From IMG/VR virus record IMGVR_UViG_3300044712_001462, positions 124,001 to 188,000 of that record: 64,000 bases of DNA; one strand, 5' to 3'. Each line of letters begins with the position of its first letter. Position 1 is the first letter of the stretch. Under the pieces are notes generated by a model. That model saw only the letters and a list, made by a program, of their open reading frames with translations. It ran no database searches and was not told where the DNA came from. A program made the translations under genes and the position numbers. This DNA is from a virus. This document shows positions 14,910 to 40,272 of the stretch, one piece after another.

Positions 14910-15869
14910 TCAAACGGCTACGGCCTGATCCGAGAACTCTGCAATTGCTTCCTGCCAGGTGGGCATCTCAATCGGAGTCAGGGCTTCCAACTTCTCGATC
15001 GAGAGGGGTGTGGAGTGCACAATCTCAGCAGGCGAATCCCCCATCAGCTGAGCGATCTCCTTGTGCGGAGCGGGTTCGAAAACACGCCCCTGCCAATGAA
15101 TCGCGTTTCGGAGCCGGTATGCAAAGTCAAAGGGCGTGGTCACACCCGAGTTTGCCACATGGTACAGGCCCTGAGGTACCGTCTTCCGGTTCTCAGCCAG
15201 CCAAATGATGACCTTAGCCAGATGCGGCACAAAGCACGGAGTAATCTTCAGATCGTTCGCCAACAAGTGCGAAGGCATTTGTGACGTTCTAGGAGGAGAC
15301 AGAACCTGCTGAGTCAGATCCGTCCGCCACTGACGGTGCTCTGAATACGGAGAAAACAGATGGCCGCATCGGAGAACCCAGTACGAGAAGCCATCGAGCT
15401 GACCCGTCTGGCCCAAACGCATGACTGCGTGCTCGGAATAGGACATGGCAGAGGCCAGGAAGTTGGGAGGGGCCACAGGATCGGTCTCTGTGTACAGATG
15501 AGATGAGGGCTGCATCCCCATCCCAAATACCGAGTGGCACGATAGATGAATTAGTGGGATCTTGAGGAAGGCACCAAGCTTGGCCAGGTTATCTGCCCCC
15601 CGGACAAGCGTATTCCACGTTTGTTCCCTGTTTCGGGCGGCTGCCCTCCAGTCTGCAACTCCCGCGGTGTTAACAATGACGTCTGGCTTCAACAGCTCAA
15701 GCTGCTCGCGGCAAGCCTGAAAATTCGAAACATCAAGCATCTCTCTGGTTTTAACAACGTAATTCCTGACCCCTCCTCCATTCTGTGCATCAAGTTCTCG
15801 TACAATCGCTGATCCTAATTGTCCCGTCGTCCCGGTAATCAGTATCTGGGCGCGTCTTCTCGATACCAT
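14910..15869 (-). CDS. RmlD-like NAD(P)-dependent sugar reductase/epimerase
   Basis: The 319-residue protein has a Rossmann motif near the N-terminus (ILITGTTGQLGS, 9-20), VNTAGVADW, the HLSCHSVFG segment equivalent to ISTDYVFDG, and an RmlD_sub_bind-like C-terminus. It would act on nucleotide-linked deoxysugars. The usual YxxxK is YSEHA here, so the catalytic Lys is missing and activity is uncertain. The ATG at 15869 follows AGGGGAAG. It may serve the glycan genes at 36-40 kb. Confidence 0.7.
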   Translation of the reverse strand: MVSRRRAQILITGTTGQLGSAIVRELDAQNGGGVRNYVVKTREMLDVSNFQACREQLELLKPDVIVNTAGVADWRAAARNREQTWNTLVRGADNLAKLGAFLKIPLIHLSCHSVFGMGMQPSSHLYTETDPVAPPNFLASAMSYSEHAVMRLGQTGQLDGFSYWVLRCGHLFSPYSEHRQWRTDLTQQVLSPPRTSQMPSHLLANDLKITPCFVPHLAKVIIWLAENRKTVPQGLYHVANSGVTTPFDFAYRLRNAIHWQGRVFEPAPHKEIAQLMGDSPAEIVHSTPLSIEKLEALTPIEMPTWQEAIAEFSDQAVAV

Positions 15870-15910
15870 ATCTTCCCCTATTGACAAGAAGGAATTGAGC
15901 CACCAGCGCT

Positions 15911-17603: not shown

Positions 17604-18787
17604 GCAGCTTCAGCCGTCTCAGTCTCCTTGTCAGAGGGCTCCTCAGCCGGGACCGGGTCAGGTCGCAACACCTTTCTTCGGGTCGTCTCAGAAGACATAC
17701 CCATGATCGAGGTGAACAATTCATCCATGCGTCCCAATACGAACTCACGCTGCGTCCCATCTTTCCGCAAACGATTCGCTACCGTCGTAGCATCCTCGCC
17801 TACCCCTTTCAGAACGTTGTGGAGCTCTTCGAACTGGGCCCCAATCTGGCGACCATTCAAGATGCCAAACGGCTCAATCTTCGACTTGTACTCCTCAATC
17901 GCTTTGAAGACGCGCTCAATCACGCCATCCTTAAACGACTTTTGCGTACCATCCTGCCAGCCGCGGATCGAAGACACCATCTGCTGCAAACCCATCGCCA
18001 TCGCTTCTTCGATCAACTCCGCCTGCTTCTCAGCGACTTCGGTAAATTGCGCATTCAGTCGCGCCTGTTGTCGCCGGTATTCAGCCGGGTTCACCGCCTT
18101 CAAATACTCCGGCAACTCGAAGTTGTAGGTCTCAAAGCCCACGCCGATCTCCTGGTGGAGCCGTTCAGACGTCGGGTAATCCGACTCGTCATGCAACTCT
18201 CGGAGACGCTCCCGACACGTCGCCATGACTTCTGACCAGTTATTAGCCAGCTCATCAATAGCCTGCCGGAAGTCTGAGATCAGATCGTTGATCTCATCCA
18301 GGAACACACGCACTTCCTCATTCTGATCCTGTTCGGTCTCCCCGCGGACACCAAACAAGCGCACCCCATCTTCGGGGTACTTGAGGGTTTTCGATTGCCA
18401 GTACTTGATGAGCTTGGCCTTGGCCACCTGAACCGCGTGAATCGAAGGATGCTTCGCATACAACACTTTAGTAAAGCGGAGATGCGAGGGATCGCAGTCC
18501 ACGCTGCCAGCCAGCTTATGCGCTGCATCACCCTTAATCTTCCGGCTCTTACTCAGGTCATTGAACTTCAACCGGAAAGCTCGGGCGACTGCCTTAATGG
18601 TCTGCCCAGCTTCACGATAGCGCTCACGCTGTACCGCACGATCTTCTGCTGGAGGCAGATCCGCCAGCATCTTATCCACCTGCTCTTTGGTCAGGTGCTT
18701 CGTTGTCGTCTTCTTCTTTTTCTTCGACGACTTCTTCCCCACGTGCTGCTTAAGCTTCTGTAACAATTCAGGAGAGATACTTGCCAT
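17600..18787 (-). CDS. DUF3150-like protein paired with AAA+ ATPase
   Basis: The 395-residue protein has a Lys-rich N-terminus (KKSSKKKKKTTTKH), a helical core with W..V...CRERL..L and DYPTSERLHQEIGVGFETY, and a long C-terminal helical region. This resembles DUF3150 proteins known from phages, but the match is by eye. Its ATG overlaps the ATPase stop (TAATG), so the two are coupled and probably work together, perhaps as substrate adaptor and motor. The acidic tail ends at a promoter. Confidence 0.6.
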   Translation of the reverse strand: MASISPELLQKLKQHVGKKSSKKKKKTTTKHLTKEQVDKMLADLPPAEDRAVQRERYREAGQTIKAVARAFRLKFNDLSKSRKIKGDAAHKLAGSVDCDPSHLRFTKVLYAKHPSIHAVQVAKAKLIKYWQSKTLKYPEDGVRLFGVRGETEQDQNEEVRVFLDEINDLISDFRQAIDELANNWSEVMATCRERLRELHDESDYPTSERLHQEIGVGFETYNFELPEYLKAVNPAEYRRQQARLNAQFTEVAEKQAELIEEAMAMGLQQMVSSIRGWQDGTQKSFKDGVIERVFKAIEEYKSKIEPFGILNGRQIGAQFEELHNVLKGVGEDATTVANRLRKDGTQREFVLGRMDELFTSIMGMSSETTRRKVLRPDPVPAEEPSDKETETAEAA

Positions 18788-21700
18788 TAGTTAACATTGG
18801 GTCGAACTACCGACCGCCTCTTACCTCCGCCAGTGATGTCTGACACGCTGACCACTTGTTTCGCTCCTACATCGTAAAGCCCCGGAGCTGAGGCGTTCAA
18901 ACATCGTCCAGAGGCCCAGGCTCGCAGATCCTGCAGTTTGGTATCTGCCATTCGAGTGACAGGTACCACCTGCTTCGCAGCTTCGTCCAGAGAAACCTCA
19001 CGAATTGCCGCTAGGCGACAGCACGCCTTAATTTCAGCACCCGTCCAGCCCTCACTCAGCGTAAGGAGACTGTGCTTCACCTTGTCTGTCCGCGACTCCG
19101 CATGGCCATACAGATGCAAGTAGATCTGCCAAATAGCCAGGCGCTCTTCCTCTGTGGGAACATCCACAAAGAACACCGCATCAAAACGCTCCGCCCGAGA
19201 GAATTCTGGTGGGAGCATCGAGATGTTGTTGCAATTATGAACCACAACCCCAGACGCCATAAACGAGTGATGGGGCTCCTCAATAACCACATCGTAAACA
19301 GTCTGCTCACCAAGCGGAGAGGGTTCAACAGACACCACACTGACCCACTTCTGAGACCAAATACGTCGAACCTGCTCCAGCTCGTCTGCAATTTCGCGAG
19401 CCGCAGACTCGGACATCTTGGCAACATAGTGATCTACAATCACCTGCCACAACTCCGCCGTATCCGCCGATATTAGCGGAGTGTACTGCCTGTAGTTTGG
19501 CAACACCGATGTATAGCGACCAGCCGCTTTTAAAATAATCTCCAAACAATCATGCATTCCCGGAACACTCCGAACTCCATCTCCGTTAACCTCCTTAGGC
19601 CTACATATCCGACTTTTCTTGTCCGGGTGCTGAAACGGAATGAGCTGTGCAAACCGATGACAAGACTCCGAATCGCGGATACTCAGCTTAGTTACATCCT
19701 TGCGAGGAAGCTTTCGCGAAATCGTTGCAACAGAACCTTGAATATCAAATCTCGTTAAGAGAAGTCGAAGCTGGTCGATCATGACTGGGCTAGTTACCGC
19801 AATCTCAATTCGCCCACGTTTACTGATATAGCCCTCGGCGTCAAAAAGACCCGCTATAAAGGACAACACCACATCCTTGTCCGGAGATGCCATTACATCT
19901 TGAGGTATTTCTCGCACACATTGCAGGCATAAGATGTCTGGAAAATACTGCTCAAACCAATCTAACAGAAGACGACGATCCAGATAGATGTAGTACGACT
20001 GTGCTTTTGGACGCTTATCAATAACCTTTGGCTCTACTCCAAACAAACTACGAATCAGCGAGCATAGGTGCTGAGTCAGACCTGCGCTAAACTCAGATAA
20101 TTGAAGCCGATGGGCCTTCCTGTTTAAAAGCTTACCTTTACCCCCGTCCCCGCAGCAAAATCCAAGAAAATACGCCAATTCTGCTGTTAAGTACTCTGGT
20201 TGTTTAACAGGTTTCTGTCGGGATCGTGCTGGTAACGGCAGATACCGTTTTGCGGGTTTTGATCCCACTGGAGCTTTAGCTTTAGAAAGCAATAGATCAT
20301 CAGCAGTAAGATGCTTCGCTTCTTTCTCAGCTATTTTACCGTTTTGAAAGACAAAGAATCTGTGATCAGGCGTTGCATCGATGAACCCAGCTGACGTACG
20401 TATGCGTAGCATGTCGCGAATACCGCGGCTGTACACTAGCCCGGAGCCAGATACCCACTGACCAGTCTCGTCATCCACACTCAGGAACGTTTCACGTTGG
20501 CCTACAAGCGACTCAAGTTTACAGATACGCCCGTCCGCCAACTCAACAAGTGTTCCACCGGCCAAACACGTACCGATGAAAAACACATCTGACGTATGGT
20601 CGTTCAACCAACTGAGTAACTTACCAAAAATGCGATCACCAGAGCCGCCATCTGTCATCGATGATGACTGACCTGCTCCGGACAGTGCTTTCTCGATTTC
20701 CACTTGTGTTACGAGATACCCGTTTCCGGTACCTCTCTTACGGTTACCCGTAAGGTCAGACTATTTCATCCTGTCGCTGCGACAGGGCCCCCGTTTCGAG
20801 ATCACTTGATCTCTACTTCCTTTCGGAATAGTCGTTGAACGTTTCAGTCATAGACTGACTTCGCTGCAGATAATCCAGGCTAGTGGACTTCCCTGCAATT
20901 AGAGGGCTTTGCATCGGCATGTCACCACGCCGAGGGACTAACGTTAATCCACAAAGAGAATGCACGGCTGCATAGCATCAGCCAGCTTCAGAGCCATCCG
21001 GACATTGGCATCCGTTTCACCCTGAAACTTCGATCTGAGTGCGCCCATATCCATCATGAGCACTTTGCGCTGGGTCTCATTACCCATCGCCTTAATGATC
21101 GCACTCTTACCGGCACCAGGCACACCAAGGAGCAGCATACCACGAGGCTGAAGCAGAGGATTATCTCGTCGCCGAAGTAGCTGCTTCGAGAACTCCTTGA
21201 ATTGCTGCAACCCACCCAACTGCGCATAAGTGTCTGTGCCTTTGTAGATCTCCAGTACACCGCGCTTCTTGAGATCCTGAGCCTTCAGGTCCCAGATCTC
21301 ATTGGGATCGAGCTTACCGGTCTTCGCCAGAGACAAACTCAGAGCATCCTCGAAACCACGTCGAGACAATCCCGCCGCAGCATCTAAGACCAGTCGTTTG
21401 TCGTCATCCGTTTTAGGTAACTCCGTCTCCGCACAGATGTTCTTAGCGATCGACCAGAGTTGTTCCTTACCTGGCAGCTCGTGCTCCAGGATTACAAAGT
21501 CCTTCTCTAGCTCTCGAGGGATCTCAATCATCGGAGAGAGCACAATGGCGCAGCAGGAGACCTGGCCCTCCGCCTTACAATCCGTTACCGCGTTCTGCAG
21601 AGCCTGCATGATGGGTAGGTTGTGAACCAGCTGCTGGTGATGGAAATTCTTGAGAATCCAGATGACGTGAGTAGCACCCTCGCTACCCTGGGACTCTTGA

Positions 21701-21981
21701 GCCTGCCGAAGGGCCAGAGACATCACAGGCATGTCCTGAACCAACGGGAGAGGCTTCATCTGGTAGTTAGTATTCTTCGAAATGAAATCTCTTAGCGTCT
21801 CAGCTGTATCTCGGGGGCATTTGAGGCCCGCGGCGAAGTCCCACACAATGACCGGCCATTGTCTCTCAGCACATACCGGTACGATCTCTGCGATAGCATC
21901 CCCAAACTCATAAGTCTCAACCCAAAGGCCGGTGAAACCGGCTCGCAAATACTGCCGTACTTGCTCCCCAAGTGCTGGCAC
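18787..21981 (-). CDS. Ycf46-like AAA+ ATPase, interrupted by a group I intron and an intein
   Basis: Coding parts are 21981-20947 (345 aa) and 20700-18787; the first codon is GTG. The host protein after splicing is about 537 aa. It has a Ycf46-type N-terminal domain (IVWDFAAGLK, about 45-54), Walker A GVPGAGKS (286-293), Walker B ILFVDE split by the intron after Asp 345, the FFIGT/CNN sensor region split by the intein, and an RFD arginine motif. ATPases of this kind act as chaperone-like motors; the substrate is unknown. It sits between DUF2997 and DUF3150-like genes. Splicing signals in both elements look intact, so the protein is probably active. Confidence 0.85.
19234..20568 (-). mobile_element. 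Intein with LAGLIDADG homing endonuclease, 445 aa
   Basis: The intein begins with Cys 1 (CLAGGTLVELADGR), has the block B histidine in ATPDHRFFV, two DOD endonuclease motifs (FLGFCCGDG and IAGLFDAEG) and ends VVVHN before the extein Cys. All residues for standard splicing are present, and both DOD motifs keep their acidic residues, so homing may be active. Insertion is between FFIGT and CNN of the ATPase sensor region, only 132 bases from the intron site. Confidence 0.92.
20701..20946 (-). ncRNA. Group I self-splicing intron, 246 nt, no ORF
   Basis: Exon 1 ends GTGGAT and exon 2 resumes GAAATCGAG, restoring FVDEIEKAL. The intron starts after a U and ends in G (20701), as group I introns do. 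The R element GTTCAACGACTATT (20829-20840 core) and matching S element GATGAAATAGTCTG (20757-20770) form P7, and extra hairpins lie between them. No endonuclease is encoded, so it is a minimal ribozyme, possibly mobilised in trans. Subgroup IA is likely but not proven. Confidence 0.9.
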
Positions 21982-23447: not shown

Positions 23448-23729
23448 TTACACTTTGTATCCGCGTTTCCTCAATTCCGCGTCAGCATGTACCACGCTGC
23501 CAGGGATACTAGTAGAGCGCATGGGCTCAGGGCGCGTCGAGGTTGCCTCAAAAAAACACTGGAGAGCGCGCCTGCTCGTAAAAATCCGTCCACCTATGCG
23601 CAGAGTATCTAACAGAACCCCGCGATAACCGACGGTGGCCCAGCGCCAGACTGTCGAAGAAGATGTTTTCCCAGGTAACGCCTTCGCTGCCTCAGAGAGC
23701 GAAAGCACGTCTTCGTCGTCGAATTTCAA
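23448..23729 (-). CDS. DUF1580 protein, probable excisionase-like DNA-binding protein
   Basis: The 93-residue protein shows LSLSEAAKALPG, TVWRWATVGYRG and a C-terminal FTSRRALQCFFEA, the pattern of DUF1580, a helix-turn-helix family found largely in Planctomycetota next to integrases. The start is TTG behind GGAGGAA, overlapping the integrase end by four bases. It likely directs excision or regulates integrase, by analogy with MerR-like excisionases. Confidence 0.8.
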   Translation of the reverse strand: MKFDDEDVLSLSEAAKALPGKTSSSTVWRWATVGYRGVLLDTLRIGGRIFTSRRALQCFFEATSTRPEPMRSTSIPGSVVHADAELRKRGYKV

Positions 23730-24919
23730 CCAAATTCCTCCGCAATTGATCGAGCCAGCTTCAAGTTCTTCTCCGCGTAGATTTCGCTGGTGCGAATATG
23801 CTTGTGCCCTAACAACACCTGGCTGCCTTCTACCCCGTACTTTTCACGTACGCGAGTAGCAAGGTTGTGCCGGAGCTGATTAGGAGCCCACGGAGTTACT
23901 CCTGCTGTGATACACGCTCGCTGAACTGCGCGCCGATAGGAATTGTGGTCATAGTGTGTCCCAGGTGATTTCACACGTCTTATCTTGCGGTTAGAGCCTG
24001 GTTTGTTACCGCACGATACGGGAGTAGTGCGCCGCTTATGTCGGGCGGCTAAACGCTGCTCTTCCGCCTCCCGCGGTGAAAAGCAGTATTCCAAGGGTGA
24101 TCGTTGCAAAAAGCGACGGAGTATTTTCTGCGCCCGTCGCCCTATCGAAATTTCCCTGCGAGCATCTTCCTGGTGTGCCAGCTTGTGATCAGGTGGCACG
24201 TAGAGCCACACGGGATCTTTCATGGAAATATCACACGGCCTGAGAAGACAGATCTCCATCGGCCTCATCCCTGTCCAGTACTGCAAACGAACCATCTGCG
24301 CCACCACTTTGGGCAGGTATGGAATCGTCTGTCTCAAGTCTTTCTCAGGCACCGGCAAAATCTTTTCGGTCTCCCTGGCCTTCGTCAGCCCTTTTCTTAA
24401 CCCTTCGAGGGTATTGAGATGAGCATGCGTATTCTTCTCTACCAGCCCAGCGCTCTCTGCCCACTTGAAGAGCCGCTTCACACAACCGATATACCGGTTC
24501 ACCGTGGAGCGCGAGAGCTTGCCTTCGCGGACTAACTGGGACTGGAGATCTCGGAGAGACCGAGCATCAAAGCGATCAGCTAACGTGTGCCCATAGTATT
24601 TGAGCAGCACATCGTTAGCCGCCTTGATTACCGCTACCTGGGAGGATAGCTTCCCCCTCTTAGACTGGTAACGGATATCCACGAACTCGTCCAGATAGCG
24701 CAGGACGAGGTGGTTGACGAACAGCGGTTGAGACCTCTCTTTGGCCACCACCGCGGACCCAGGATGCACCTGCCTCCCAGCGAGATGGTCGGCAATGAGC
24801 TGCGTACCCTGCGCCTCTGCAGAGCTCTTTTCCCGGCCTAAATAAATTCGCTTTCCAGCGATGTGAACGTAGAACTGACCGGTTGCGGCATGCAGACGAA
24901 CTTGGGGTTTGCGTGGCAT
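23726..24919 (-). CDS. int: Tyrosine recombinase (phage integrase)
   Basis: The 397-residue protein starts MPRKPQVRLHAATGQFYVHI, typical of planctomycete integrases, has a SAM-like core-binding domain (about 65-160) and catalytic residues Arg 219, Arg 350, His 372 and Tyr 381 (EIYAEKN). The HxxR motif reads NQLR, with Asn for the first His, as in some relatives. It would join phage and host DNA at att sites. A longer frame upstream starts inside the palindrome; ATG 24919 is preferred. Confidence 0.92.
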   Translation of the reverse strand: MPRKPQVRLHAATGQFYVHIAGKRIYLGREKSSAEAQGTQLIADHLAGRQVHPGSAVVAKERSQPLFVNHLVLRYLDEFVDIRYQSKRGKLSSQVAVIKAANDVLLKYYGHTLADRFDARSLRDLQSQLVREGKLSRSTVNRYIGCVKRLFKWAESAGLVEKNTHAHLNTLEGLRKGLTKARETEKILPVPEKDLRQTIPYLPKVVAQMVRLQYWTGMRPMEICLLRPCDISMKDPVWLYVPPDHKLAHQEDARREISIGRRAQKILRRFLQRSPLEYCFSPREAEEQRLAARHKRRTTPVSCGNKPGSNRKIRRVKSPGTHYDHNSYRRAVQRACITAGVTPWAPNQLRHNLATRVREKYGVEGSQVLLGHKHIRTSEIYAEKNLKLARSIAEEFG

Positions 24920-24930
24920 GGCTGACCTTT

Positions 24931-24956
24931 TTAGTTGGTAGTCGACTACCAACTAA
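24931..24956. repeat. 26-bp perfect palindrome upstream of int
   Basis: TTAGTTGGTAGTC is followed by its exact reverse complement, 12 bases upstream of the integrase ATG. Each half contains AGTTGGTAGT, which recurs twice at 25187-25207 beyond the tRNA-like sequence. Likely an integrase arm site or an autoregulatory operator. Confidence 0.8.
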
Positions 24957-25026
24957 ACTGTAAAGCAATCAGCAGGCCAGCCCTGGCTGTTTTCCTAAGT
25001 TCTTATGCTGTAAGGCTTTACTGAGT

Positions 25027-25107
25027 GGGCCGTGACAGACTCGAACTGTCGCCCTCTTGCATGTCAAGGAAAAACAGGCGAAATGAGGTCACTCGTAAAA
25101 ACGGCCC
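25027..25107 (-). tRNA. tRNA-Val(GAC)-like sequence, likely attP core or divergent tRNA
   Basis: Acceptor GGGCCGT/ACGGCCC pairs 7/7, the T arm GACAG-TTCGAGT-CTGTC is perfect and the anticodon loop TTGACAT gives GAC. The D-arm region is 28 nt and abnormal, and the anticodon stem has a C-C mismatch at 30:40. The 3' half is what a tRNA-integrating phage must carry to restore the host gene. It may be the attP core rather than a working tRNA. Confidence 0.65.
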
Positions 25108-25186
25108 AAAACCTTTACAGATAAGCACTTAAGCGTCATTGCATACTTCGCAGCTGGCTTTACTTTTTGCCCATTTTTTCAGCGAT

Positions 25187-25207
25187 AGTTGGTAGTTAGT
25201 TGGTAGT
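25187..25207. repeat. Two direct copies of AGTTGGTAGT
   Basis: Copies at 25187-25196 and 25198-25207, eleven bases apart, repeat the arms of the palindrome at 24931-24956 on the other side of the tRNA-like core. Candidate integrase arm-binding sites. Confidence 0.7.
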
Positions 25208-25249
25208 CCTAACCGCCAACATACCGCGCCAAAAACGTGCGCCAAGTAA

Positions 25250-25287
25250 CAAAAAACGGCTGTGACAGTTTCCCATCACAGCCGTCT
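25250..25287 (-). terminator. Intrinsic terminator
   Basis: ACGGCTGTGA/TCACAGCCGT followed by TTTTTTG on the minus strand, after the gene ending at 25311. It shields the attP region from upstream transcription. Confidence 0.9.
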
Positions 25288-25310
25288 CTCAGGTTGCTCG
25301 GAGGGCCGAG

Positions 25311-26663
25311 CTATGCTGCAGAATCAACAACCACATCCAACCCCGGTACCGCCTCTCCCCAGAACTCCTCTTCATTGATTCTCGAGGCGTTGAACAGTCG
25401 ACGACCAATAAAGGCATTCCAGGCCTCAATCAGAATCCGCCGATAACACATTCCTGCGGTGTCCGAGCCGCCTTCAGACCGATTAACATCTTTCGCAAAG
25501 TTACACGCCACACGGAGTGCCGAGTAGGACGTATTCGCATTCGCTGTCTGATCAGTCAGTCCTGTGACAAAACTAATAGCAGACGCGGGAAGAGCGTGAA
25601 TGATGTTGTCTTTGGCTTTCTTGTCAGACACCACATGCTTCTTGATGTGATCTGTAATCCGGTCGCACATCGTCCAGCGATCCATCTTCTCCATACCAGG
25701 CAACGGAGTCCAACACGGTAACGGACCACCCGTCAGAGGCTTCTTACCTGTGTACCAACCGTTGGAGCCCAGATAAACCACCGCGGCAATGTCCGAGGCA
25801 TCAAATGGAAAAGCGTTCACCCACTCGTTACGAGTAGTCCGCTTGTTGTAGACCTTTCTAGGGTGATACCGGTCGACGGCCCAAGCGTAAGCATGAATAT
25901 TACGCAGCTCGGAAAGGTAATCGAACAAAATCTCCGCATCAAACGTCGAACACAGTTGCCAAGGCCTACCGCTATTACGACACACATCGTAACTGTGAAT
26001 TCGACGAATAACAGCAGTCACCTGGGAACCAGGACTCCAGCCTAGGGCACCCAGGAGACGTCCAAATTCATCGCTCTGGAAATCACTGGGCAAGGAAAAC
26101 TGCATGGTGTGCCCGCAGAAAGAGGGCAACGTCAATGTGTGAAATGTCCGGTCATCCGGCGCAGGCACGCAGGTTCGTCCGCGGCGAATAGAACATTGAT
26201 AGGCTGGCTCTAAAGCCGCCTGGGGCTCTGGAGGCATGACCTCGTCTACTGGACGGCTGCACTCACCGCCAACAGCTCGCAGCAGTCGATTGTACTCGGC
26301 TACTGTAATGCGCTTCTCTGCGTATTCAGACCAGTTGTGGGAAATCAAAATGGATGTGTGCTTCTTCTTACTTGCGTCAACCGTGTTGTCGAGCACAATA
26401 TCCGAATCGGTTACCACCAGATCAGGGTAGACAGTAGCCTCGTATACGGCATCCTGTTTATAGCTTTGTAGCATAGCCTGTCTGTTAACCGCAACTGTCT
26501 TGTCGGGGGTTGTCTTGTTAGTCTTTTGGATCAGCTCCTCAGTGATCGGAACCACCCCCAACGTAAAAGCGGGTGAGGAATAGAGACGATGTCCACTATT
26601 CTGAAGAAAGGTCTCAAACCATCCTGGTTTGTGGTTAAAAGGTAAAGGCAGCTGACTAGTCAT
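25311..26663 (-). CDS. Hypothetical protein, 450 aa
   Basis: One of the largest frames in the window, starting MTSQLPLPFNHKPGWFETFL. It has several Cys/His residues and mixed alpha/beta character, but no catalytic motif I recognise. It is last in its operon, before a strong terminator and the integration region. The ATG at 26663 overlaps the upstream stop and follows GGAG. Confidence 0.7.
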   Translation of the reverse strand: MTSQLPLPFNHKPGWFETFLQNSGHRLYSSPAFTLGVVPITEELIQKTNKTTPDKTVAVNRQAMLQSYKQDAVYEATVYPDLVVTDSDIVLDNTVDASKKKHTSILISHNWSEYAEKRITVAEYNRLLRAVGGECSRPVDEVMPPEPQAALEPAYQCSIRRGRTCVPAPDDRTFHTLTLPSFCGHTMQFSLPSDFQSDEFGRLLGALGWSPGSQVTAVIRRIHSYDVCRNSGRPWQLCSTFDAEILFDYLSELRNIHAYAWAVDRYHPRKVYNKRTTRNEWVNAFPFDASDIAAVVYLGSNGWYTGKKPLTGGPLPCWTPLPGMEKMDRWTMCDRITDHIKKHVVSDKKAKDNIIHALPASAISFVTGLTDQTANANTSYSALRVACNFAKDVNRSEGGSDTAGMCYRRILIEAWNAFIGRRLFNASRINEEEFWGEAVPGLDVVVDSAA

Positions 26664-26958
26664 ACGTCGAACACTCCATTTTCCTGTACACGTCACGAAA
26701 GAAATCAATCACCTGTTTTGGCGACTCTGCGTGCAGAAGTTCAACGTTAAACGTTGGACCGTCGCCCCGGGTATTGAACTGAGCTTCGGCACTGATGGCT
26801 GACTGCCCCTGATGCTCGAACAGCTCAATACCTACGTTAACCGCCCGGGTCCCCCGGTCATAAATCCACATGTAAGCAGCCCGTCGAGCAGTCGACAGCA
26901 CAAAAACGTTGCTCTCCTTGAAGCCATAATCCAGATAATCATTCCAGGTTGCTGACAT
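26656..26958 (-). CDS. Hypothetical protein, 100 aa
   Basis: ATG 26958 (MSATWNDYLDYGFKESNVFV) follows GGAGAAG. The pattern suggests a small alpha/beta fold (VNVGIELFEHQG; FNVELLHAESP). Unknown function, coupled to the 450-aa gene. Confidence 0.65.
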   Translation of the reverse strand: MSATWNDYLDYGFKESNVFVLSTARRAAYMWIYDRGTRAVNVGIELFEHQGQSAISAEAQFNTRGDGPTFNVELLHAESPKQVIDFFRDVYRKMECSTYD

Positions 26959-35866: not shown

Positions 35867-36400
35867 TCACCTGTTATCAACTTTCAAAAGAAATTGCGTA
35901 CCGTGCTGCTGGACGGAGCCAAAACGCCCTAGTTCTTCCGCGGTCCAAGCAGACAGATGACGCTCATAGATATTACCAAATACCTGACTCTGGGCGAAAA
36001 AGTCCACAGGAGTTGCTACAAGGGCTGTCTGGCAGTGTTTCTTTAGAAGTCCGAGAAACTCCAGGGCTGTAGGCTTTTCAAGATGCTCCAGGGCATCGAC
36101 GCACAGGGCCAAATCCCAGTGCTCTCCGCGGCGCATGAATTCAACCATGTCACCGATGATGATGTCGTTGTAGAGAGCTCGGTGCCAGGGTTGGACGTAG
36201 GGTTCGTAAATCTCCACGCCAGCCAGGTAGGTGCGCCGTCCTGGGTATTCTTTTTCTCCCCAACCATCCACATACTCCCGCACCAAGGCTCCCCACTTAC
36301 CGCTCCCAATACCCAGATCCACAATCCGTCTTGGCTTAGGCTTGAGCCACAGCAATTCACAGCAGACGGGACGAAGGTTATCGACAGAAGAGAAGGGCAT
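35867..36400 (-). CDS. Class I SAM methyltransferase, 177 aa
   Basis: RIVDLGIGSGKWGALVREY is motif I and LALCVDALEHLEK is motif IV-like, as in methyltransferases of surface-polysaccharide clusters. It overlaps the glycosyltransferase start by one base. It probably modifies a sugar. Confidence 0.75.
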   Translation of the reverse strand: MPFSSVDNLRPVCCELLWLKPKPRRIVDLGIGSGKWGALVREYVDGWGEKEYPGRRTYLAGVEIYEPYVQPWHRALYNDIIIGDMVEFMRRGEHWDLALCVDALEHLEKPTALEFLGLLKKHCQTALVATPVDFFAQSQVFGNIYERHLSAWTAEELGRFGSVQQHGTQFLLKVDNR

Positions 36401-37206
36401 TAATGGAATACCTCAGGCATCGTTCCTCCAAACCGCCACAAACGCAGACCGTCAGGTAACTCTTCCTGAAACCAAGCTTCACGGCTCACGATCGTCTTAG
36501 GTCTTGTAGCTCGCTCACCTCGGTTGCAGTAGTAATCATTCTTGTCTCGAATGTGCTCTGGATCCTTACAGAACCCAAAGTGCAAACACACTGGCCCAGC
36601 TATCTGCCAAGCATCATCAGCAGAAACTAACCGTCTATCGTGCACGCGCAGACCAAAATCCTGTAACGGATGCGTACCTCGCTCAGGGTAATTGTGATTC
36701 TGTCGATACCGGTCTCCCGAACGCACCCGCCAGAACCGGATATGCTCGATGTCGTAATACCCGCCGGTAATGAACTGATCTGTTGTCTTCCAGAAATGGA
36801 GTGACGGAAACCGCCACGCCCACTTCGAGTCGTCCTGCCTTATCTGTTTGATAATGGCAGACAGCTCATCTCGACGATAGAACTCATCAGCATCAACCGC
36901 GATCAGCAACCCAGGCGTGACATTCTCCATATACCGATTACGAAGCTCACACTTAGCCTGGGCCCCTCCAGTTGAAGTCCAACCATGCTGGATGAATCGA
37001 ATCTTCTTATCTGGGTCTGGAAAATCTCGGACCAGGCTAGCTGTCTCATCAGTTGACAGACCATCCGATGTCACTCGTGTAGCCGGATACAGTCTGTCTG
37101 CTCCCTCCACGACTGTAATGCTATCAGCCAGCGGATAGTGCTGCTCCAGGTTACGCGCAATGTACTGAGCCTCGTTTAACACGATCATACCGATCGATAC
37201 GTGCAC
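36400..37206 (-). CDS. GT2-like glycosyltransferase, 268 aa
   Basis: The N-terminus VSIGMIVLNEAQYIARNLEQ, a GLSTDETASLV stretch and the DADEFY metal-binding motif (about 102-107) are typical of GT-A family 2 enzymes acting on nucleotide sugars. The rest is Trp/Arg/His-rich. Confidence 0.8.
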   Translation of the reverse strand: MHVSIGMIVLNEAQYIARNLEQHYPLADSITVVEGADRLYPATRVTSDGLSTDETASLVRDFPDPDKKIRFIQHGWTSTGGAQAKCELRNRYMENVTPGLLIAVDADEFYRRDELSAIIKQIRQDDSKWAWRFPSLHFWKTTDQFITGGYYDIEHIRFWRVRSGDRYRQNHNYPERGTHPLQDFGLRVHDRRLVSADDAWQIAGPVCLHFGFCKDPEHIRDKNDYYCNRGERATRPKTIVSREAWFQEELPDGLRLWRFGGTMPEVFH

Positions 37207-37215
37207 GGCAGTCTC

Positions 37216-38220
37216 CTAACAGATAGCATTCAACCAAGCTTCCACATGATCTTCTGGCCTGTGTTTATCCGCAGCCCCAGGCCTTACAGCAGGTAAGGGT
37301 CCGCGCATAGCTGCACTAAGCTCAGCCACACTACCCAAGGACGTTACTATCAGTCCGGGTGTGTCTGGTGCTTCCAGAGCCGCGCTACCTACATCCGAGA
37401 CAATTACCGGACGTCTACGAGCCAAGGCTTCGGCAATGGTTAAGTCATACCCCTGTCCATAAGCTGTCGGTACCACTAAGGCGTCCACTCCGTCATACAC
37501 AGCAGGCATATCCCGACGTTTGACATTCGAGATTGTGGATAACCTCACGCCAGCCAACTGTGCTGCTTCGGCTGCTGTCTCAAATAACCGAGTTCCCTGT
37601 CCCGAAATAGAAGCGCACAGAAAAGTATCCTGACGCTTAACAGGAGCCGTCGGAGAACGGAAAAAGTACCCAGGAATCGGGTTGTAAACCAACTTAGCCT
37701 GGGGAAGACACATGTAGTGCCTGAGCATCTGATACTCGTGACGACTGATCCCTAGCACCGTATCAAAAGTAGCTAGAGCCTTACGTTCCCGAAGCATACC
37801 AGGCGCATCAAACCGGGGCTCCTCGCTCGTCTTACCTAGCCAGTACAGATTCCACTGGGTCAGAAACGATCCCCAGCCAAAACCGTGTAACGTACAGGCG
37901 GTTGTCGTATTCGGTAAGTCAGCCCACCAGGTCCTGTGTACATCTAGGGAGTCGCAATGCACGACGTCAGGCCTGATTCGCTCACAGAATGCGCGGCATC
38001 CTTCTGCAAACTCTGTCGAATAGACATGCGGCTCACAGTCAAGATGGTGAACAACCAGGTTAGTTACCTGTGTTACTGCCTGTAATGTTGGATGTCCGGT
38101 AGTTAAAACAAATACCGTATGTCCGGCGGCAGCCAGCGCTTCCGCTCTGTCCTGAACCACAAACGGCATCCCACCACTACGATGTGTAGGATATACCCGA
38201 CAGACAAGTATGATCTTCAT
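37216..38220 (-). CDS. GT4-like glycosyltransferase, 334 aa
   Basis: A GT-B fold is indicated by MKIILVCRVYPTHRSGGMPF, by HGFGWGSF and by the C-terminal GYDLTIAEALARRRPVIVSD, which carries the E-x7-E-like donor site in shortened form. It probably transfers a sugar in the same pathway as its neighbours. Confidence 0.8.
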   Translation of the reverse strand: MKIILVCRVYPTHRSGGMPFVVQDRAEALAAAGHTVFVLTTGHPTLQAVTQVTNLVVHHLDCEPHVYSTEFAEGCRAFCERIRPDVVHCDSLDVHRTWWADLPNTTTACTLHGFGWGSFLTQWNLYWLGKTSEEPRFDAPGMLRERKALATFDTVLGISRHEYQMLRHYMCLPQAKLVYNPIPGYFFRSPTAPVKRQDTFLCASISGQGTRLFETAAEAAQLAGVRLSTISNVKRRDMPAVYDGVDALVVPTAYGQGYDLTIAEALARRRPVIVSDVGSAALEAPDTPGLIVTSLGSVAELSAAMRGPLPAVRPGAADKHRPEDHVEAWLNAIC

Positions 38221-38720
38221 TTACGCGTGCCCCTTAGACAAGCCACAAAATTCAGAGTCAATCTACCACTATCCAGCGAACCAGCGTCATAAGCATGGAA
38301 GTCTAGTAGCGCCGGGCCCAGCATAGACAGATCAAATACGCCTGCTCTGGTGTCTGGTCCAAATGTATACCGCATCTTGTCGCCATCCGGACCTAAACCG
38401 TTCTCTCCGCGATGTCTGAACAACAGGTCCTGAATCCAAAAGCGTTTGCAACACCCCAGCACATTGGAGAACCACCTGCCAGGATCCGGCGAATAATGAA
38501 ACACATTACAAGCCACAACCAGATCCGTTAACTCTCTGCCTTGGTTATTGAGATCCCAGTCACTTACTCGCCAACGTAGAAACTCAGCCCTTGGATATAG
38601 ATTACTAACAATGCGACACTGGCGATCGTTCAACGATAACCCAATAATCTTGCTGACAGGCTCTTTGGACCACTTGAGAAAATATCTCTCGCAAGCCTCA
38701 TAGTCCTGGTCTACAGCCAT
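38217..38720 (-). CDS. Methyltransferase-like protein, 167 aa
   Basis: LVVACNVFHYSPDPGRWFSN resembles the post-motif segment of class I methyltransferases, but the glycine-rich motif I is not obvious (KIIGLSLNDRQ). Possibly a degenerate or shortened member. Confidence 0.5.
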   Translation of the reverse strand: MAVDQDYEACERYFLKWSKEPVSKIIGLSLNDRQCRIVSNLYPRAEFLRWRVSDWDLNNQGRELTDLVVACNVFHYSPDPGRWFSNVLGCCKRFWIQDLLFRHRGENGLGPDGDKMRYTFGPDTRAGVFDLSMLGPALLDFHAYDAGSLDSGRLTLNFVACLRGTRK

Positions 38721-39325
38721 TCCAGCACCTTCTCTACGGGTACTAACAGTGTTCGAATCCGTTCCACGAGATCTCGAACAGGTTTTGGATCAGTCTCCCA
38801 GGGCACATGCAGAGTAAGGACTAGCGGGTACCCAAAGGTCGCCGGGATCCTCTCTACTAACTCGGAAGCTCGTCCATATAGCTCTTTACAGGCAGGCATG
38901 TAGACCGCTGCGCCAACCCGAGAAGGTAGGCAACTAGACGAGATATTTCCCTCATAACCTCCCAAGAAGATTGAGCCACCAGCTTCTGACCAGTTAAGGA
39001 CTGTCTGTCGCGTATAGGCGTTGAATGGTGGAATGTACACCCCTGTCTGAAGCTTTAACCTAGACTCGCGCATTCTGTCCGCCGAGACATCTGCTCCCCG
39101 AGTATGGTCGTAGCCATGAACCGACCACCGCTCTGGTTCCTGCAGATCGACACGCGCCGCAGCTCCCGGCTCCAACCAAGCCGGTACTGCGCCGTAAATG
39201 GCTGGTGTGCCTATCAGACCACAAGCACCCCTCCACCAGTCAAAATAACGCAGAGCGCCATCCGATCCCTGTTCCGGCTTGTCTCCCTCTCGTCTCCCTA
39301 CGTCATCAATCCGTAAGACAATCAT
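38711..39325 (-). CDS. Polysaccharide deacetylase-like protein, 204 aa
   Basis: LRIDDVGRR provides the Asp-Asp pair and VHGYDH the HxxxH metal motif of the NodB/CE4 fold, with PPFNAY matching the RxPxG-type region. It may remove acetyl groups from a glycan. Length is short for the family. Confidence 0.65.
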   Translation of the reverse strand: MIVLRIDDVGRREGDKPEQGSDGALRYFDWWRGACGLIGTPAIYGAVPAWLEPGAAARVDLQEPERWSVHGYDHTRGADVSADRMRESRLKLQTGVYIPPFNAYTRQTVLNWSEAGGSIFLGGYEGNISSSCLPSRVGAAVYMPACKELYGRASELVERIPATFGYPLVLTLHVPWETDPKPVRDLVERIRTLLVPVEKVLEWL

Positions 39326-40272
39326 GCTGCCTCCACAAGCGCCCTAAACGATTCCTTCTTCTGCTCCCACGAACGCTGCTCAGCCCACTGTCGCGCAGCC
39401 AGACTAGCTTCTGAAATATCCTTCCCCAGCCACTTCTGACACAACAGCAACAGGTGGTGCGCATCCGGTAGGTACCAATCTACCGATCGGCCTATCTTTT
39501 TGGTCACCGCACGCGAGTTGATCCTGTCTAGAGCTGGGTATTCGTTCCACGGATTACCGTTCGTGGAGATGACAGGCATTCCACTGGCTGCCGCCTCGAG
39601 GATCTCTAAGCCAATACCGTCCACTGAGTGGGGCACAAGAAGAACATCCCCCTCTGTGTACAGCTCTGCGTTGGACTCAGGACTCGAAGTAGACGCCCAG
39701 TCCAGTTTCTTCTGGCTATAAACTGCAATAGGTATATCCGGCCAGTTATGCCTCAGCCGCTGCACGAGCCCGCCGCCTTTTCTCCCCAAGTACCCACCGT
39801 GCCCGTTGATAAACACAAAACGGCGACAAACAGTTCTCTGTCTGAATACAAACCTAGTCAGATCTACCGGCCAGGGAAAAAAGACACAGGGCAGCCGATC
39901 CTTAAACTGGTTGAAACAGTGTTCAGTCGGACACAGATAACGAGATACACCCCACTGTCGGGCGCTGTCTGGCAACCACTCCTGCATAGGAATGCAGATA
40001 GCAGGGCGACTGTACTCACGGCAGAGCGCAGGCAGAGTAGCAAAATAAGGGTGTTCGCAGAAAACAACCCTATCTACCTTGTCTCGCACGAAAGAGAGTC
40101 CAGCCTGCTCGTCACCGTATGTTGAGTACTCCGCGCGATCAGGAGTTGTGGTGGGAAAATCTCGATGTTTCACCACCAGCCAATGGGCTAAATCAACGTG
40201 GGAATCAATCTGGCGATTGAGTTCACCCAATCCCGAAGCGCAGCAATACCCCGCTAATCCAATACGCGACAT
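39322..40272 (-). CDS. GT-B glycosyltransferase-like protein, 316 aa
   Basis: The C-terminal half has DVLLVPHSVDGIGLEILEAAASGMPVISTNG, here given in part: GIGLEILEAAASGMPVIST, the donor-site signature of GT4-like enzymes. The N-terminal GYCCASGLGELNRQI loop also fits. First full enzyme of the operon. Confidence 0.75.
   Translation of the reverse strand: MSRIGLAGYCCASGLGELNRQIDSHVDLAHWLVVKHRDFPTTTPDRAEYSTYGDEQAGLSFVRDKVDRVVFCEHPYFATLPALCREYSRPAICIPMQEWLPDSARQWGVSRYLCPTEHCFNQFKDRLPCVFFPWPVDLTRFVFRQRTVCRRFVFINGHGGYLGRKGGGLVQRLRHNWPDIPIAVYSQKKLDWASTSSPESNAELYTEGDVLLVPHSVDGIGLEILEAAASGMPVISTNGNPWNEYPALDRINSRAVTKKIGRSVDWYLPDAHHLLLLCQKWLGKDISEASLAARQWAEQRSWEQKKESFRALVEAA

Follow-up and report, generated by a model that had tools for sequence, protein, structure and literature searches.

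Lambda-type heterobivalent integrases combine a three-domain fold and the catalytic residues R, K, R, H, and Y with arm-like repeats that flank the core on both sides (PMC8138268); the survey of YRs with arm-binding domains in the same publication does not mention planctomycetes. Anticodon-centered attachment sites are already known as subsite A of Islander (PMC4383910), where attP contains the 3' half of a tRNA, the crossover is near the anticodon loop, and the tRNA is restored. In the case of IntS of KplE1, int reads away from the tRNA, its leader overlaps the arm sites, the att site overlaps the int promoter, and self-repression by IntS has been shown (PMC2951348). Mycobacteriophages with tRNA-dependent lysogeny also aim a tyrosine integrase at a host tRNA gene, with a core of about 10 bp and bringing their own tRNA (PMC10865867).

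The locus analyzed here resembles all four systems and differs from each. Fold, catalytic residues, and arm-like repeats on both flanks agree with the lambda-type integrases, but the histidine of the HxxR motif is mostly Asn and one of the putative arms has the form of a palindrome whose distance is fixed. The tRNA 3' half and its arrangement agree with Islander subsite A, whereas here one integrase family is distributed over about ten isotypes with a constant arm geometry. The orientation of int, which points away from the tRNA, and the overlap of its leader with putative arm sites are as in KplE1, but one perfect palindrome makes up the putative site here. Unlike the mycobacteriophages, this phage carries the whole 3' half, and the sole tRNA called in the record, which is possibly incomplete, is a tRNA-Thr(TGT). 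Each individual element of this probable attP is of a known kind. No description of a fixed-distance, family-wide palindromic arm site was found in a limited search of the open-access literature.

Elements between the integrase gene and its upstream neighbor

The window, a stretch of 64,000 nucleotides, represents positions 124,001 to 188,000 of a 224,528-bp virus record. Genes for a large terminase and for a baseplate wedge protein in other parts of this record identify the virus as a large tailed phage. The integrase gene (23726 to 24919, minus strand, 397 aa) starts with the ATG at 24919 and is preceded by AAGG (24926 to 24929, minus strand), by sequence the likely ribosome-binding site. 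About 300 noncoding bases separate it from the hairpin ACGGCTGTGA/TCACAGCCGT followed by a run of T (25256 to 25285, minus strand), the likely terminator of the upstream gene, which codes for 465 aa without a family match (25311 to 26708, minus strand). The first-pass annotation had placed a tRNA-Val(GAC) 3' half between a palindrome and two direct repeats, all sharing a 10-mer, and direct reading bore this out: starting from int, the order is palindrome, tRNA half, and the two repeats, with palindrome and repeats both built from AGTTGGTAGT. The exact 10-mer occurs 5 times on both strands of the record, and 4 of these copies are within 275 bp at this attP-like locus.

The palindrome TTTAGTTGGTAGTCGACTACCAACTAAA (24930 to 24957) is composed of two head-to-head copies of TTTAGTTGGTAGTC. 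It had been annotated with a length of 26 bp, but measures 28 bp and is perfect; the second-longest perfect palindrome of the record has 16 bp. Its DNA hairpin z-score is -5.9. With about 10 nt between palindrome and ATG, it overlaps the int leader, and, judged from the sequence and from the relatives, it is a putative integrase arm site. The two direct repeats TAGTTGGTAGT/TAGTTGGTAGT (25186 to 25208, plus strand), with a spacing of 11, are putative arm sites of the far flank, as indicated by sequence and by the recurrence analysis below. The arm unit AGTTGGTAG is located at positions 24933 to 24942 and 25187 to 25207, and is identical to the common tRNA D-loop consensus. An origin of the arm sites as copies of a tRNA D arm was considered and rejected, since the palindromes of the relatives have unrelated flanks and do not keep AGTTGGTAG; the match is probably a coincidence. 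Paired copies of the 10-mer at other places in IMG/VR were mostly short-period repeats, and none was accompanied by such an integrase in the stretch examined.

The tRNA-Val(GAC) 3' half (25026 to 25068, minus strand, tRNA positions about 31 to 73) reads C-TTGACAT-GCAAG-AGGGC-GACAG-TTCGAGT-CTGTC-ACGGCCC-A, which gives, in this order, the anticodon loop, the stem strand, the variable loop, the T arm, the acceptor strand, and the discriminator. From the loop TTGACAT (25061 to 25067), whose anticodon GAC specifies Val, it extends as far as the discriminator A at 25026. All five T-stem pairs are formed, the T loop is TTCGAGT, and the acceptor strand is ACGGCCC. The Rfam tRNA score of 24.4 bits was below the gathering score of 29 because the 5' half of the stretch is not tRNA, and ARAGORN called no tRNA at this locus. 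The pattern from loop to acceptor strand matched once in the window and not at all in shuffled sequences. The putative attP therefore contains a tRNA 3' half that begins at the anticodon loop. On the minus strand at 25101 to 25108, TGGGCCGT is the exact complement of the acceptor end ACGGCCCA. A whole tRNA-like element, as suggested by the acceptor complement GGGCCGT upstream of the core, was nevertheless rejected: among 35 free attPs, only 1 had a 7/7 match, and this complement is probably due to chance.

Other genes of the record were noted. An AAA+ ATPase gene (CDC48/PAN-like, phrog_8638; 18787 to 21981, minus strand) has two interruptions, a group I intron (20737 to 20956, 71 bits) and an intein with a LAGLIDADG domain. 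Three glycosyltransferase-like genes and one RmlD/epimerase-like gene (36400 to 40272 and 14910 to 15887, minus strand) suggest phage-encoded sugar modification. Outside the window, at record positions 112644 to 114542 (L039:12644-14542), a protein similar to the RNA polymerase beta subunit (phrog_25354; phrog_3015, 2.8e-6) is encoded, and the phage could encode a multisubunit polymerase.

The integrase family, its tRNA halves, and junctions in relatives

The integrase matched PF00589 (4.8e-15) and phrog_1 (3.4e-30). Single-protein searches with the integrase and the terminase of this phage returned no relatives. A degenerate DNA pattern for PNQLRHxxATR identified nine IMG/VR loci, and an alignment of these nine with the window integrase led to 80 loci, which were selected by the protein alone. 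No relatives of the integrase L055 were found in plasmids and isolate phages. The residues R219, K246, R350, H372, and Y381 were invariant among 53 aligned integrases, while the HxxR histidine, residue 347 of the window integrase, was Asn in 41 of the 53, with 10 having His and 2 having Tyr instead. AlphaFold gave no usable model from the single sequence (pLDDT of 36); AlphaFold2 with the 53 relatives reached a pLDDT of 89.8 and predicted an N-terminal beta-beta-beta-alpha domain with three strands (E7-10, E15-20, and E23-28) and a helix (H31-46), the arm-binding fold described for Tn916 Int (PMC8138268). The closest solved structure was that of lambda Int (1z19, Z of 18.0, rmsd of 2.8 over 249), with aligned rows mostly spanning residues 64 to 380, and 1z1b was matched by Foldseek with 2.7e-9, so that the core-binding and catalytic domains are like those of lambda Int. 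The integrase belongs to the lambda-type (arm-binding) tyrosine integrases, with the arm-binding fold being a prediction of the model.

The 64 loci with at least 560 nt upstream of int were searched for a tRNA T arm, with all five T-stem pairs demanded in the strict test. A T arm on the same strand upstream of int was present in 38 of the 64 loci, whereas the wrong strand had none in any of the 64, and remote windows had one in 2 of 206 cases. This indicates that integrases of this family, as a rule, are accompanied by a carried tRNA half. Another 14 loci, a near-identical clade plus L092, possessed the T arm just downstream of int on the opposite strand, and 12 had none by the strict test. 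The clade, L107 to L120, differs from the rest of the family by an attP directly downstream of int, on the opposite strand, with a tRNA-Gly(CCC). Anticodons for Met, Lys, Arg, Pro, Val, Gly, Ala, Ile, Asn, and Gln were found among the relatives, and the integrase tree, in which many inner branches are weak, requires a minimum of 22 changes of the isotype.

Two relatives provided junctions. The record of L056 contains a complete tRNA-Val(CAC) beside int and, at a distance of 33.6 kb, an exact copy of 50 bp; the sequence in common extends from the first base of the anticodon loop to 8 nt past the tRNA. In the L107 to L120 clade, L110 and L115 are integrated forms, each with a complete tRNA-Gly(CCC). 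When pairs of integrated and free forms were compared, they were 92 to 94% identical on the phage side and 22 to 29% on the other side, and identity started two bases before the anticodon loop, which is within the anticodon stem. These junctions mark the boundary between host and phage DNA at the anticodon loop or stem, with a complete tRNA at the junction in L056, L110, and L115, and thereby belong to the anticodon-centered class known from Islander subsite A. On average, 3.2 of the 5 anticodon-stem pairs were kept in free attPs, compared with 1.9 in random sequences and 5.0 in integrated copies, and the value for free attPs is as expected if the stem strands are inverted core sites. In L056 and also in L137, the 50-bp core is followed by a 4-bp difference, after which attL and attR share 19 bp more (CATTTCAGGAACGCCGCTC), as if the phage carried host sequence from beyond the tRNA. 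The records of L054, L059, L093, and L097 contained one copy each of the tRNA half, and no second copy (attR) was seen.

The first-pass annotation had also predicted a host tRNA-Val gene sharing this 3' half. Exact and transition-degenerate patterns of the tRNA half had no match in 84,980 species, represented by one genome each. A loose pattern also had no match in IMG/VR. Since the host tRNA was not found, the reading of the locus as an attP next to the integrase, although strongly supported, rests on the tRNA halves, junctions, and arm-like repeats of the relatives. The host may be a planctomycete, as integrase motifs suggest.

Palindromes at a fixed distance from the tRNA half

A palindrome test was applied to 43 loci (three near-duplicates removed), with a score of at least 7 and a center 76 to 92 nt past the tRNA end required. 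Such a palindrome was present at 22 of the 43 loci, compared with 0 to 2 for search windows that lay upstream or were displaced by 20 to 150 nt. Most centers were at 82 to 87.5 nt past the tRNA end, typically about 85, and about half of the relatives had no clear palindrome at this place. The sequences differed between loci, for instance, CCGAGATCCGGTAGCTTACCGGATCTCGG, CCAAAACGGTACATACCGTTTTGG, and AAAAGTGTGGTCACCTGACCACACTTTT. A copy of the half-site was present beyond the core in 12 of 20 loci, where it beat all or all but one of 39 other loci. It recurred in none of the 3 integrated loci, in which the far flank is host DNA, and it was found again in the attR of L056, 135 nt from the loop. 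In L066, a near-identical palindrome (CCGTAGTCTACGG/CCGTAGACTACGG) is present on both flanks of the tRNA half, which makes it a clear two-sided case. In L060, the tRNA half upstream of int lies between the two arms of an imperfect inverted repeat (CGTGACTTCACCAACGAATTTA/TAAAATCGTTGATAAAGTCACG), which is possibly a second kind of site. As a feature of the family, a second class of core-flanking inverted repeats was rejected because it reached a rank of at most 1 in only 4 of 35 loci.

Similarity of the palindromes correlated with the identity of the integrase N-domains (r of 0.43), also after removal of the catalytic-domain identity (r of 0.34, p of about 0.001), and not with the tRNA isotype (r of 0.03). 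The L056 and L069 types, for example, are 67% identical in the N-domain and 40% in the catalytic domain. This partial correlation held when one to three key loci were dropped, and p rose to about 0.09 with four dropped. The evidence that the N-domain may read the palindrome is good but not final because the locus pairs are not independent and the search windows had been set after some of the loci had been viewed. Judged from about 40 related viruses, the layout of a borrowed tRNA half with a palindrome at a fixed distance appears to be the rule for this little-studied integrase family. Whether these integrases form an undescribed, widespread family with a two-module attP, composed of an exchangeable tRNA 3' half and a palindrome of free sequence at about 85 nt that coevolves with the N-domain, is in our estimation evenly balanced.

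Alternative readings and proposed recombination

Position of the palindrome directly before the start codon is typical of an operator, and KplE1 has RDF sites in a similar location. The tRNA half may thus be an attP while palindrome and repeats serve as operators for a phage repressor or excisionase (RDF). We regard this as unlikely. An operator at a promoter needs no half-sites beyond the core, where they nevertheless recur; the palindrome tracks the N-domain of the integrase beyond the catalytic domain; and the predicted arm-binding-type domain needs sites of its own. Somewhat less probable is a decayed attP, inherited from a temperate ancestor by a phage that no longer integrates. Large phages are predicted to be virulent in 80% of 10,754 genomes (PMC13037316), and no integrated copy of this phage was seen, which would both agree with decay. 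An intact integrase reading frame with all five catalytic residues argues against it, as does the perfect state of palindrome and repeats, which decay would not have kept.

Any palindrome folds as RNA, and this one adjoins the ribosome-binding site, so that a hairpin in the int leader controlling translation, with the far repeats being unrelated, needs to be considered. It is very improbable, since 22 of 43 loci have the palindrome at a constant distance from the tRNA half, and another copy of the identical unit occurs on the far side, where it is upstream of any int leader. As an explanation of the tRNA-like stretch, a phage tRNA gene of degenerate or unusual form, instead of an attachment core, can practically be dismissed: the 82-nt stretch retains a 7-bp acceptor stem and has an RNA z-score of -2.3, but it is without a D arm, has a C-C mismatch in the anticodon stem, and was not called by ARAGORN, its acceptor complement is compatible with chance, and the half serves as core in the relatives.

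The region from 24930 to 25208 is thus very probably the attP of a large tailed phage, whose lambda-type integrase would recombine it with a host tRNA-Val(GAC) gene at the anticodon loop; chance by far does not account for tRNA half, palindrome, and repeats. The core would be the tRNA 3' half. By analogy with the junctions of the relatives, the 7-bp loop TTGACAT may be the overlap for strand exchange, with the two anticodon-stem strands as core sites. The N-domains would grip the palindrome on one side of the crossover, at a distance of about 120 bp, and the direct repeats on the other, at about 133 bp, while the core domains of the protomers sit on the anticodon-stem strands, so that the integrase, with the DNA folded, bridges arms and core. 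Exchange of strands across the loop with the host tRNA-Val would join the host 5' half and the phage 3' half into a working tRNA that is followed directly by int on the same strand, while the host 3' half thus displaced would end up at the opposite end of the integrated element. As in KplE1, integrase bound at the palindrome would probably repress its own gene, which is suggested by the location of the palindrome about 10 to 38 nt before the int start codon.

One putative attP has been turned into a testable rule for a whole family, which concerns the position of the arm site, the domain that may read it, and the change of the tRNA target at constant arm geometry. The locus provides a handle on lysogeny in a phage of more than 200 kb, among which lysogeny is a minority lifestyle, and the carried tRNA halves offer a way to find the hosts of uncultured viruses. 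If the two-module attP is true, target and arm specificity would evolve independently of each other, and the arm sites would therefore be predictable from sequence for dozens of uncultured viruses.
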